Shown: in pieces, positions 4,470 through 63,332 of the stretch
How the letters are laid out: each line of letters opens with the position of its first letter
How positions within the stretch are numbered: position 1 is the stretch's first letter
Source: Siccirubricoccus sp. G192
Lineage (GTDB): Bacteria; Pseudomonadota; Alphaproteobacteria; Acetobacterales; Acetobacteraceae
NCBI RefSeq assembly: GCF_019084075.1
Contig: NZ_JAHREN010000001.1
Location: forward strand, 3,073,501 to 3,137,500
Length of the DNA stretch: 64,000 bases
Direction of reading: 5' to 3'
The notes under the pieces: model-generated
What the model saw: only the letters and a program-made list of their open reading frames with translations
What the model was told of the DNA's origin: nothing
Database searches by the model: none
Position numbers and translations under genes: made by a program

Positions 4470-5018
4470 CTACCGCGCCGGGCTGCTGCCGCAGCGGTTG
4501 TCGAGCCGGCCGCCATCGGCGATGCCCAGCACCACCACGATCTCCTCCGGCCGCGGCGCATCCGCCACCATCACGGTGATCGTATCGAAATGCGCGAAGG
4601 ACCAGGGATCGTCCTTGTGGCCGAGCGGCAGGTCGAGCATCGCCCCCGCCGCCGCGAGTTTCACATTGGAGGGGATCACCGCCTGCCCGCCGCCGATCGC
4701 CGCCCGCATCGGCCGGCCGAGCATGGGGTGGATGCAGGCACCGCCATGCTCCATCTCGCCCGCGACGCCGACGATGGCGCCCTTGCCATAGGACACGGCG
4801 GGCCGGCCGCCCAGCAGCCGGACCAGCTCCGGCATCAGCCGTTCCCCGAGTTCGGCGCCAAGCCCGAAGAGCGGCGAAAGATCCGCCTCCCGCCGCCCGG
4901 CGAAGGGATTGGCGATCACCGCCAGCGCCACGGCGCGCTGCACCGGCGTGGCGGCCGCCTGGCCCATTTCCCCCAGCACCTGCTCGCGCAGCGTCACGAT
5001 CTTGCGGATGGAAAGCAT
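4470..5018 (-). CDS. Amino acid synthesis family protein (DUF1185)
   Basis: 182-residue protein that resembles the PF06684 / DUF1185 family, whose biochemical role is not established despite its name. Recognisable stretches are the N-terminal KIVTLREQVLGEMG, the GKGAIVGVAGEMEHGGACIH glycine/histidine-rich core and HPMLGRPMRAAIGGG. It is convergent with the GST gene and begins 21 bases upstream of the DUF4337 stop region on the same strand. No signal peptide or membrane segment is visible. Confidence 0.8.
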   Translation of the reverse strand: MLSIRKIVTLREQVLGEMGQAAATPVQRAVALAVIANPFAGRREADLSPLFGLGAELGERLMPELVRLLGGRPAVSYGKGAIVGVAGEMEHGGACIHPMLGRPMRAAIGGGQAVIPSNVKLAAAGAMLDLPLGHKDDPWSFAHFDTITVMVADAPRPEEIVVVLGIADGGRLDNRCGSSPAR

Positions 5019-5040
5019 GGTCCCCTCCCTTGGCAGGCGA

Positions 5041-5604
5041 TCAGAAATGCACGGCTTCCGGCGCGAAGAAGCCGAGGCCGGTCAGCACCAGCCCGCCAAG
5101 CCCCACCACTACCGCGCCCGCCGCCAGCGCCGGCACCGCCGTGACGATGGAGGCGGAGGCCAGCACGATCGCTACCTGGAAGGCGGCGGAGCCGTATTCG
5201 TAGTGGTGATAGGCCGCGAAGGACAGGTCCCGCTTCGCCTCCGCGGCGCGGGCGCGGGCCGATAATTCGCGGCGGCCCTCGCCGGTCTCGGGCTCGCTCT
5301 CCCAGCGCTGGGCGGTCGCCCGCCAGGCCTGCTGCTGCTGCTCGATGGCGGTGCGGAGCGTGGCGTCGGTGGCGGCCTGGCGGGCCAGGTCCGCTTCCTC
5401 GGCGGCGGTGCGGACGGTGGTCTGGCGGATGCTGCGGGCCTGGAAGAAGGCCCAGAGATTGGCGGCCTCGATATTGCGGGAGATCGCCTCGGTCTGGGCG
5501 CTTTTCGCGCCCGTCTCGGCCAGGGCCAGGAACAGCGCCAGGATGGCGATCAGCAGCGCGATGCGCTTGTCGCCATTGTGGTCCAGATGGGCATGCCCGG
5601 CCAT
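5041..5604 (-). CDS. DUF4337-type membrane protein
   Basis: 187 residues with a hydrophobic segment near the N-terminus (RIALLIAILALFLALAETG), a long polar helical middle part rich in Ala, Arg, Glu and Gln that may form a coiled coil (about residues 50-125), and two C-terminal hydrophobic stretches ending in GLGGLVLTGLGFFAPE. This matches the DUF4337 family, whose function is unknown. The start at 5604 is preceded by GGGGGAGAGGA, a strong ribosome binding site; the reading frame is open further upstream but has no support there. Confidence 0.75.
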   Translation of the reverse strand: MAGHAHLDHNGDKRIALLIAILALFLALAETGAKSAQTEAISRNIEAANLWAFFQARSIRQTTVRTAAEEADLARQAATDATLRTAIEQQQQAWRATAQRWESEPETGEGRRELSARARAAEAKRDLSFAAYHHYEYGSAAFQVAIVLASASIVTAVPALAAGAVVVGLGGLVLTGLGFFAPEAVHF

Positions 5605-5696
5605 TCCTCTCCCCCGATGCTGCAATCCCAGGGAGAGATGCCAGAGCGCGCCGCGATTCGCACCCCCGATGCTCGCGGGGGTGCGCCGCTTGCCGG

Positions 5697-6056
5697 TCAG
5701 GCCGCCTGGCGGGCCGGGCCTTCGGCCATGGCCCTGGCGCGCACCGATCTCAGCACCTGCTCCGCCTCGTCGGCATAGGCGGTGCTGGTCTCGGCGATGA
5801 AGCGCATCTGCAATTCCATCGCCTCCTGCAGGTCGGAGCAGCGCCGGAGCCCCTCCATCAGGGAGATCTGCGCCTGCCACCGCCTGGTCCCGAAGCCGAC
5901 CAGCTCCTCGGCCAGCATCAAGGTCACGTCGGAGACCTGCCGCTGGGTCACGAAGAACTGCTCGGCCAGGGCGACGTCGGAGCCGGATGAGCCGCTGACG
6001 GGCTGCGCCGCCTGGCCGGGCCGAAAGCCCGGCAGGGTGGATACGATCTTGCTCAC
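5697..6056 (-). CDS. Phasin-like protein
   Basis: 119 residues, mostly one helical region. The segment from LAEQFFVTQRQVSDVTLMLA through LQEAMELQMRFIAETSTAYA resembles phasin-family proteins (PF09361), which coat polyhydroxyalkanoate granules. The family is weakly conserved, so this is a pattern-level call. It begins with GTG, preceded by GGGAGG. It lies upstream of the DUF4337 gene on the same strand with a 92-base gap. Confidence 0.6.
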   Translation of the reverse strand: MSKIVSTLPGFRPGQAAQPVSGSSGSDVALAEQFFVTQRQVSDVTLMLAEELVGFGTRRWQAQISLMEGLRRCSDLQEAMELQMRFIAETSTAYADEAEQVLRSVRARAMAEGPARQAA

Positions 6057-60603: not shown

Positions 60604-61557
60604 ATGGACACCCAGCCGATTATCCAACCACCCCTTGGGCCCGCCGCCCGGCCCCCCGACGAGGCCGCGCTGCGGCTGCGGCGGGACCGCGCCCGGAAGC
60701 GGGCGGTCTTCTTCGTGCTGGGCGCGGCCGGGATCTTCACCATCGCCGCCGCCTTCGTGAAGGCGCTGGAGGGCGGCATCCCGCTGGCCCAGGTGATCTT
60801 CTGCCGCAATCTCTTCGCAATTCCGGCCCTGCTGCCTCTGCTCTGGCGGCATGGCGGGCTGGCGGCGCTGCGCACCTCGTATCCGGGGATGCATGCGATC
60901 CGCACTGCCGCCGGCCTGCTCGGCATGGCCGGCGCCTTCTACGGTTATGCCACCTTGCCGCTGGCCACCGTGACCGCGCTCGGCTTCACCATGCCGCTGT
61001 TCCTGACGGTGCTTTCCGTGCCGCTGCTGCGGGAGCGCGTCGGGCCGCGCCGGGGCGCGGCGGTGCTGGCGGGCTTCTGCGGCGTGTTATTGATGGCGCA
61101 TCCTTCGGAGGGCGCCGCGGGGCAGCATTTCGCCACGCTGATGGTGCTGCTGGGGGCGCTGGGCTGGGCGATTGCCATGATTACCATCCGCCGCATGGGC
61201 GATGCTGGGGAGGCGGGCGTCACCATCGTGCTCTGGTTCTCCTTCGCCGCCGCGGTGGTCTCCGGCTTGGCCAGCATCCCGGTCTGGGTGGCGCCCACGG
61301 CCTGGCAATGGGCGATGCTGGCCGGCACCGGCCTGGTCTCGGCCCTGGCGCAGGTGCTGATGACCGAGGGCTACCGGCGGGGCGAGGCATCCCTGCTCGC
61401 CCCCTTCGAATATTCCGCCATCCTCTGGACCACCCTGCTCGGCGCGCTGGTCTGGGCGGAACTGCCGGATGGCTGGGATTTCGCCGGCATGGCGGTGCTG
61501 GTGGCAAGCGGCCTCTATATCTGGCGTCGCGAAATGGCCCTGGGGATCCGGCGCTAG
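60604..61557 (+). CDS. DMT-superfamily (EamA) transporter
   Basis: 317-residue inner-membrane exporter-type protein with about ten hydrophobic segments in two EamA repeats: AVFFVLGAAGIFTIAAAFVK, LATVTALGFTMPLFLTVLSV and, in the second half, ATLMVLLGALGWAIAMITIR and LLAPFEYSAILWTTLLGALV. The exported or imported solute is unknown. Its last eight codons (MALGIRR and stop) are duplicated at 62186-62212, behind the AT-richer island. Confidence 0.9.
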   Translation: MDTQPIIQPPLGPAARPPDEAALRLRRDRARKRAVFFVLGAAGIFTIAAAFVKALEGGIPLAQVIFCRNLFAIPALLPLLWRHGGLAALRTSYPGMHAIRTAAGLLGMAGAFYGYATLPLATVTALGFTMPLFLTVLSVPLLRERVGPRRGAAVLAGFCGVLLMAHPSEGAAGQHFATLMVLLGALGWAIAMITIRRMGDAGEAGVTIVLWFSFAAAVVSGLASIPVWVAPTAWQWAMLAGTGLVSALAQVLMTEGYRRGEASLLAPFEYSAILWTTLLGALVWAELPDGWDFAGMAVLVASGLYIWRREMALGIRR

Positions 61558-61636
61558 GGCGGCGCTACCGCGGCCGCGGCGCCCGCGCCACCTGCTCCAG
61601 GAAGGCCGCCGTCTCTTGGTTGAGGAAGTCCGCATC
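61528..61636. repeat. Direct repeat, copy 1: transporter / hydrolase junction
   Basis: A segment of about 109 bp that spans the end of the DMT transporter gene, its stop, a short spacer and the last 23 codons of a MetX-like hydrolase read on the minus strand. A second copy lies at 62183-62295 and, aligned by eye, differs by roughly ten substitutions and one 3-base gap. The longest identical stretch, 43 bases, lies within the hydrolase part. Confidence 0.85.
61565..61636 (-). pseudogene. Duplicated C-terminal fragment of the MetX-like hydrolase
   Basis: Encodes DADFLNQETAAFLEQVARA plus PRPR and a stop, matching the true hydrolase end (DVDFLNQETAAFLEQVTRA) with two changes. Upstream of 61636 the hydrolase homology ends abruptly, so this is a 3' remnant. 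The frame continues open upstream to 62083 but nothing there is recognisable. Confidence 0.75.
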
Positions 61637-62182
61637 TGTGTGCGGGCGAGACCGGGCGCTTCGATTCAGCATGGCGACATGAAGCGTGGAGGGGCATCGG
61701 GCAGCGACGCCATGCCATTCGAGGAGCATCAGCGATGGTCTGCTGCTTCGAGGCTTGGCCGCTGGGAGGAATCCAAGCTGGCGCCGAGCGTGAGAAGCCC
61801 AGCAGAAAAAGCCAGGGCAAGTACGATGAACAACCAACGGCTGAGCATGATTCCCCGTTTCCCACCTTATAGCGCTTGAACATGCCGAATGTGGAATGGA
61901 GAAAGGTACATTAAAAATATATTTAAACAAGAACAGGAAACTCACGTCACCGGCAGTTGAGGTCCAAAACACTGGCGGCCGTGCTGGATGCGCTGAGTGA
62001 CTCGCAACCTGGCTCAGATTCGCGACAGTCTCACCACGCTGGAACTGGTGCGGGTGGTGAGCCGGGTATCGTGACGCTCGCAAGGAGCTGAACCAATTGC
62101 ATCACTGCAAGCACGCCCACGGCGGCTGCGGCGGTCTGTAACGGCGCAGTCCAGGTTTGCCTTGGTTCCTTAGCCAAGAGAG
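61637..62182. other. Compositionally foreign island between two direct repeats
   Basis: About 550 bases, visibly less GC-rich, including an AT-rich stretch around 61895-61935 (ACATTAAAAATATATTTAA). It contains no recognisable family, no transposase and no clear terminal inverted repeats. The only plausible coding element is a 39-residue ORF on the minus strand at 61729-61848. Short, broken, protein-like pieces such as NLAQIRDSLTTLELVRVVSR near 62001-62069 are seen on the plus strand. Confidence 0.6.
61729..61848 (-). CDS. Possible 39-residue membrane or signal-bearing peptide
   Basis: ATG at 61848 gives MLSRWLFIVLALAFSAGLLT, then a short polar tail ending in DHR and a stop at 61729. The sequence reads like a signal peptide or single membrane helix with a positively charged N-terminus and a hydrophobic core of about 15 residues, and GGAAACGGGGAATC lies before the start. 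There is no known relative in view. It could be real or a chance ORF in decayed DNA. Confidence 0.35.
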   Translation of the reverse strand: MLSRWLFIVLALAFSAGLLTLGASLDSSQRPSLEAADHR

Positions 62183-62295
62183 CGCGACGTGGCGCTAGGC
62201 ATCCGGCGGTAGGGCGGCGCCGCTACCGCGGCCGCGGTGCCCGCGTCACCTGCTCCAGGAAGGCCGCCGTCTCTTGGTTGAGGAAGTCCACATCC
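62183..62295. repeat. Direct repeat, copy 2: transporter / hydrolase junction
   Basis: Second copy of the segment at 61528-61636. On the plus strand it still encodes VALGIRR and a stop (62189-62212), the end of a DMT transporter that is not otherwise present here, and on the minus strand it is the true 3' end of the following hydrolase gene. Confidence 0.85.
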
Positions 62296-63332
62296 GCCGG
62301 GAAGCCGCCGCCGGCCGCGGCATGGCCCGTCACGGTGCCCGGGCTGATCGTCACCACCCGCACGTCGCGGATGAAGCGGGCGGCCTCCCGCGGTTCGTAT
62401 TCCGGGTTCAGCAGGTCCTTGGTGCCGGTCAGGATCAGGGTCTTGGCCCGGATCGCCCGCAGCGCCCGGATCAGGTCGCCCTCCATGCCCGGCGTCGCGC
62501 CGATATCGTGCCGCTCATAGGCCCAGGTCTGGTAGATCCAGTCATTCGCGTCGAAGGCGCCGATCAGCGCGGTCTCCTGCGCCGTCATCCAGGGCAGCAC
62601 CTCCAGCGGAGCCTGCGGGAATTGGTCGCGGTACATCTCGGGGCTGCGGGCCGAGAGGAAGCTCAGGATGTCGCGCCACAGCCGGATGCCGCGCTCCGGC
62701 GGGGCGGTGTAGTCGCCCTCGTTCCAGGCGGGGTCGAGCATGATGGCCTTGCGGCTCGCCTCCAGCACCGCCACGGTCCAGGCCGGGGTGCGCGCCAGCG
62801 GCACCATCGCCACCAGCCCATCCATGAAGCCGGGATGGCTGACGCCCCATTGCAGCACCTGCATCCCACCCATCGAGGGGCCGACCACCGCCACCACATG
62901 ATTGATGCCGAGATGCTCGGTCAGTAGCCGATGCTGCGAGGCCACCATGTCCCGTATGGCGAAGCGCGGGAAGCGCATGCGCGGCTGCGCCGTGCTGTTG
63001 CTGGGTGAGGTGGTAAGGCCATTGCCGATCGCGTCGGTGGCGATGATGAAATACCTGTCGGTATCGAGGGCCTTGCCCGGCCCGATCAGGAAATCCAGCC
63101 GGTGATGGTTGCCGCTGATCGCCGTCACCATCAGGATCGCGTTGGATTTCTCTGGGTTCAGCGTGCCATGCGTCACGTAGGAGATGCCGAAATCCCGGAT
63201 CACCTCACCGCCTTCGAGGCGGAGGTCGCCCATCCGCCAGAGCTGGTGCGGCGCCTGGTTCGGCCCATGCGCCGCGGCGGGTTGCAGCAGCAAGGCCAGG
63301 CCGAGCACGGCGAGCGCGAACAGGTTCCGCAT
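62223..63332 (-). CDS. Exported alpha/beta hydrolase of the MetX (homoserine O-acetyltransferase) family
   Basis: 369 residues. A signal peptide (MRNLFALAVLGLALLLQPAA) precedes a MetX-like fold: ISYVTHGTLNPEKSNAILM, the nucleophile serine in VGPSMGGMQVLQWG, an aspartate in LTGTKDLLNPEYEPREA and the histidine in TVTGHAAAGGG. True MetX is cytoplasmic, so this exported form is more likely an esterase or acyltransferase of unknown target. GGGAGGAATTGC precedes the start at 63332. Its 3' end is duplicated at 61565-61636. Confidence 0.88.
   Translation of the reverse strand: MRNLFALAVLGLALLLQPAAAHGPNQAPHQLWRMGDLRLEGGEVIRDFGISYVTHGTLNPEKSNAILMVTAISGNHHRLDFLIGPGKALDTDRYFIIATDAIGNGLTTSPSNSTAQPRMRFPRFAIRDMVASQHRLLTEHLGINHVVAVVGPSMGGMQVLQWGVSHPGFMDGLVAMVPLARTPAWTVAVLEASRKAIMLDPAWNEGDYTAPPERGIRLWRDILSFLSARSPEMYRDQFPQAPLEVLPWMTAQETALIGAFDANDWIYQTWAYERHDIGATPGMEGDLIRALRAIRAKTLILTGTKDLLNPEYEPREAARFIRDVRVVTISPGTVTGHAAAGGGFPADVDFLNQETAAFLEQVTRAPRPR

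Follow-up and report, generated by a model that had tools for sequence, protein, structure and literature searches.

This locus raises the question of how the ends of two neighboring genes came to be present twice, once on each side of a short stretch of foreign-looking DNA. The locus lies in a 64-kb stretch (C1:3073501–3137500), the whole of which was analyzed and is referred to as the window. The window belongs to a 5.96 Mb genome in three contigs, an assembly that is ~95% complete.

The duplicated gene junction

The first gene (60604–61557, plus strand) is a complete open reading frame encoding a 317-residue EamA/DMT-family transporter (Pfam EamA, 1.8e-20) that ends in REMALGIRR followed by a TAG stop and has syntenic orthologs in relatives. 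It is arranged tail to tail with a complete gene on the minus strand (62223–63332) that encodes a 369-residue MetX-like α/β-hydrolase predicted to be exported. The hydrolase matches Pfam Abhydrolase_1 at 1.1e-20 and NCBIfam PRK07581 at 3e-76, a match under the cut-off of that model, and is 82% identical to its ortholog in the family genome G227. The stretch containing both gene ends is present twice, and both genes remain complete on either side of the DNA inserted between the copies. In copy 1 (61528–61636), the transporter end is the true one and is joined to an apparent relic of the hydrolase 3′ end that covers its last 23 codons (DADFLNQETAAFLEQVARAPRPR). In copy 2 (62183–62294), the hydrolase end is the true one and is joined to an apparent nine-codon relic of the transporter 3′ end (RDVALGIRR, TAG). 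Self-BLAST of the window paired the two copies with 89.3% identity over 112 columns (E = 1.8e-35), which is the top-scoring repeat in the whole 64 kb, and the alignment contains 9 substitutions and one 3-base gap. The insert between them is 546 bp long (61637–62182). These results bear out the preliminary description, which had reported a doubled transporter/hydrolase junction whose copies differ at about ten positions and enclose ~550 bp of AT-richer DNA without a transposase.

The rest of the genome was sampled as 400 kb of stretches that, together with the window, gave 464 kb for own-genome statistics. No other direct repeat of at least 50 bp around a spacer of similarly low G+C was found in these 464 kb. 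A direct repeat of 263 bp with 83% identity lies just upstream of the window (L178, 17484–17745 and 18927–19188; C1 about 3070984–3072688), within a pyruvate dehydrogenase E1-β-like open reading frame and again ~1.4 kb downstream. This repeat fits an ordinary match between the lipoyl domains common to adjacent pyruvate dehydrogenase subunit genes.

Composition and content of the insert

The insert is foreign-looking DNA. Its G+C content is 57.7% compared to the window mean of 71%, which places it below all 1270 segments of the same size sampled in the 64 kb, and about 0.7% of the same-size segments in the 464 kb of own chromosome are as low. Stretches that are richer still in AT (47–51% G+C in a 70% G+C chromosome) occur elsewhere in the genome, one in L179 (from 6551) and two in L195 (from 10751 and 19201), and these are probably acquired DNA.

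Searches of Pfam, NCBIfam, and PHROGs with the insert reading frames returned nothing above chance, no transposase, and no recognizable gene. Interpretation of the insert as a coding remnant was rejected, and the hits to phrog_31740 (E = 0.05, with a stitched frame) and NF038075 (E = 0.02, far under the cut-off) were taken as chance. A 39-residue reading frame with a hydrophobic N-terminus (MLSRWLFIVLALAFSAGLLTLG...) was read from the minus strand of the insert (61729–61848). It has no match among the families of Pfam, NCBIfam, and PHROGs or among the plasmids, and may be either a chance frame or the truncated start of a gene. An RNA element was rejected on the lack of an Rfam match and of an unusual fold (z = −1.06), and the insert contained no significant repeats. 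No terminator or promoter sites were found in the insert, and it has no terminal inverted repeats. No recognizable piece of either neighboring gene was found in the insert, the best local matches being at chance level. A candidate third copy of the hydrolase tail, inverted at 62166–62186, had p = 0.09 against shuffled sequences and was dropped.

The preliminary description had raised the possibility that the insert came from a captured circular or linear molecule. The insert DNA matched none of 72,556 plasmids and 50,697 phages, and its translated frames, where tried, likewise matched no plasmid or phage record; a plasmid or phage origin was rejected on the lack of DNA and protein matches. A second copy of the insert was not found in the genome itself. 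The 397 genomes of the family contained no homolog, only scattered short matches. A 30-bp segment of the insert (62031–62060) has a ~93% match in several family genomes (E = 2e-5 per genome) that coincides with conserved codons for TTLELVR in NAD-dependent epimerase-like genes and does not extend further. This match is attributed either to chance or to a tiny patch.

The site in relatives and the fate of the orphaned gene ends

The gene order around the site remains recognizable in other genera of the family as alaX-like, nudix, transporter, hydrolase where present, and quinone reductase-like genes. Among the loci examined, the hydrolase gene adjoins the transporter gene in three family genomes, each with one junction. 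The single-junction state that the preliminary description had suggested looking for thus exists in G035, G015, and G227, all of which belong to other genera; the genomes compared cover one species of the window's own genus, so that the empty site is seen at genus distance only. G035 has a single bare junction between the two genes. An unrelated gene of ~0.8 kb separates them in G015 (L135, about 5000–5816), and a short remnant of that intervening gene is found at the junction in G227 (L136, about 4990–5170). The hydrolase gene is absent from the locus in G143, which belongs to the same genus as G035. The transporter–hydrolase pair is patchy in the family, and the site between the genes is variable and tolerant, repeatedly gaining and losing DNA across genera. 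Because a single junction is present in each relative with this gene pair, the duplication is derived in the window lineage, to which the doubled junction seems, on the genomes compared, to be private. The MetX-like hydrolase of G015 (L135, 5834–6705) was recovered by tblastn as two separate pieces (residues 39–85 and 85–367), a pattern that suggests a frameshift or a pseudogene.

Each junction copy combines a portion of a live gene with an orphaned end, which belongs to the hydrolase in copy 1 and to the transporter in copy 2. In the orphaned hydrolase tail, an alanine replaces a valine at a position occupied by V, I, or L in 12 of 12 relatives, and another alanine replaces a threonine that is present in most relatives. 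The orphaned transporter tail has an aspartate at a position with glutamate in every relative listed, and contains a CTA codon, which accounts for 0.66% of the leucine codons counted across 182 genes of the genome. The live copies retain the conserved residues at the sites altered in the orphaned ends. The live transporter has a methionine where most relatives have a valine, and methionine is found there in two relatives as well. The substitutions are unevenly distributed (6 of 30 positions in the transporter tail versus 3 of 79 elsewhere; p = 0.013), and five of the six in the transporter tail fall at third codon positions, as could also be the case had the copies diverged as live alleles. 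Both copies have a TAG stop followed by GGCGG, features absent from the relatives with the gene pair. The copies therefore descend from one recent junction and split after the lineage left the genera of those relatives.

The orphaned gene ends look like nonfunctional relics that are decaying in place, and comparison of the copies with the sequences of relatives favors a course in which duplication came first and decay in place followed. The preliminary description had proposed that the event was not recent or that one copy came from a related strain. The donor strain is not needed to account for the divergence because the substitutions in the orphaned halves resemble decay in place. Given congener sequences, decaying ends of this kind would let the event be ordered in time.

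Origin of the insert

The pattern of the insert most likely corresponds to a known one, insertion with long target duplication, a name that comes from genome comparisons in Helicobacter pylori (Nobusato et al. 2000, described in PMC1643837 and PMC3031569). The locus shares with the cases presented there a long direct target duplication, a single copy of the target in relatives, and the lack of a transposase. The described insertions often carry restriction-modification genes, an association in those accounts and not a requirement, whereas the insert here has no recognizable gene; the empty site in this case is known from other genera only, unlike the situation in those accounts. Homology-facilitated illegitimate recombination and the single crossover of circularized fragments (PMC3240628) can likewise set foreign DNA beside a duplicated homologous stretch, but they require junction homology in the incoming DNA, and no donor is seen here. 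IS elements and MITEs also lie between direct repeats, but the ~110-bp target duplication is far longer than the 4–10 bp usual for IS1 and IS5 (PMC3031569). An IS element or MITE was rejected on the lack of terminal inverted repeats, of a transposase, and of another copy in the genome. Campbell-type integration of a plasmid or phage was rejected on the negative searches of those collections, and the insert is too small for a replicon.

We favor, with a probability of about 55%, an old and ordinary recombination scar in which a short foreign fragment was inserted with a target duplication of ~110 bp. The ancestor would have had the transporter and hydrolase genes tail to tail at a single junction. 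A short fragment of foreign DNA, now about 546 bp, would have been inserted at a break, with duplication of ~110 bp of junction sequence around it; the outcome amounts to a very short tandem duplication whose novel joint contains filler DNA. Both genes would have been kept whole, and the leftover duplicate ends, being functionless, would have decayed ever since. We infer that a single event produced both the insertion and the duplication and that it involved illegitimate joining, by alternative end joining, template switching, or homology-facilitated illegitimate recombination. The scar most likely has no function.

Import from a related strain is a less probable course, though one to be taken seriously. 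The incoming DNA would have carried a junction together with other DNA and either recombined by homology at one side with an illegitimate join at the other, or circularized and entered by one crossover; in either case, one junction copy would represent the donor allele. The 9 substitutions and the gap between the copies are consistent with such an origin, and the third-position bias in the transporter tail is what would be seen between two live genes. Circularization of linear DNA followed by a single crossover is documented in E. coli, as is homology-facilitated illegitimate recombination (PMC3240628), and the genome encodes a ComEC-type competence protein, although this family is widespread. 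Against import, the donor junction would already have to be fused to unrelated DNA, the insert is absent from every plasmid, phage, and family genome searched, and the orphaned halves bear changes typical of nonfunctional DNA. The preliminary description had offered both single-crossover capture of a molecule carrying the junction and an unusual duplication-insertion. The latter agrees with the single junction in relatives and the foreign-looking spacer. The former calls for a circle no larger than about 656 bp with a junction already fused to unrelated DNA, and no plasmid or phage of this kind was found; capture of such a circle, though formally possible, would be unparsimonious.

A larger tandem duplication of the transporter–hydrolase pair is doubtful. 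It would have been followed by internal deletion and replacement that left the hydrolase tail of the first unit, the transporter tail of the second, and unrelated DNA between them. This scheme directly yields the observed gene order and orientation, and the intergenic site is one that gains and loses DNA in relatives, as seen from the intervening gene of G015 and its remnant in G227. However, it requires more steps, and the spacer retains no trace of the missing gene parts, which would be recognizable at about 8% divergence. An assembly artefact, such as the joining of two strain haplotypes, is very improbable: the locus is in a 5.48 Mb contig of a three-contig assembly, the copies differ and appear to have decayed in a gene-specific manner, and the spacer is found nowhere else in the assembly. 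Least probable of all is an origin of the insert as a small mobile element of an undescribed type, perhaps mobilized in trans, that regularly makes target duplications of ~110 bp; recurrence of the insert elsewhere with its own long duplication would point to such an element.

The recombination scar that we favor would have arisen by Ku-independent joining, the route that is left since no Ku gene (PF02735) was found in the ~95% complete assembly by a search in which the control was detected. Fragment capture mediated by nonhomologous end joining was rejected on this result, and Ku-dependent end joining is unlikely. On this reading, the locus clearly exemplifies the capture of a short foreign fragment, accompanied by a long target duplication, in a genome in which no Ku gene was found.
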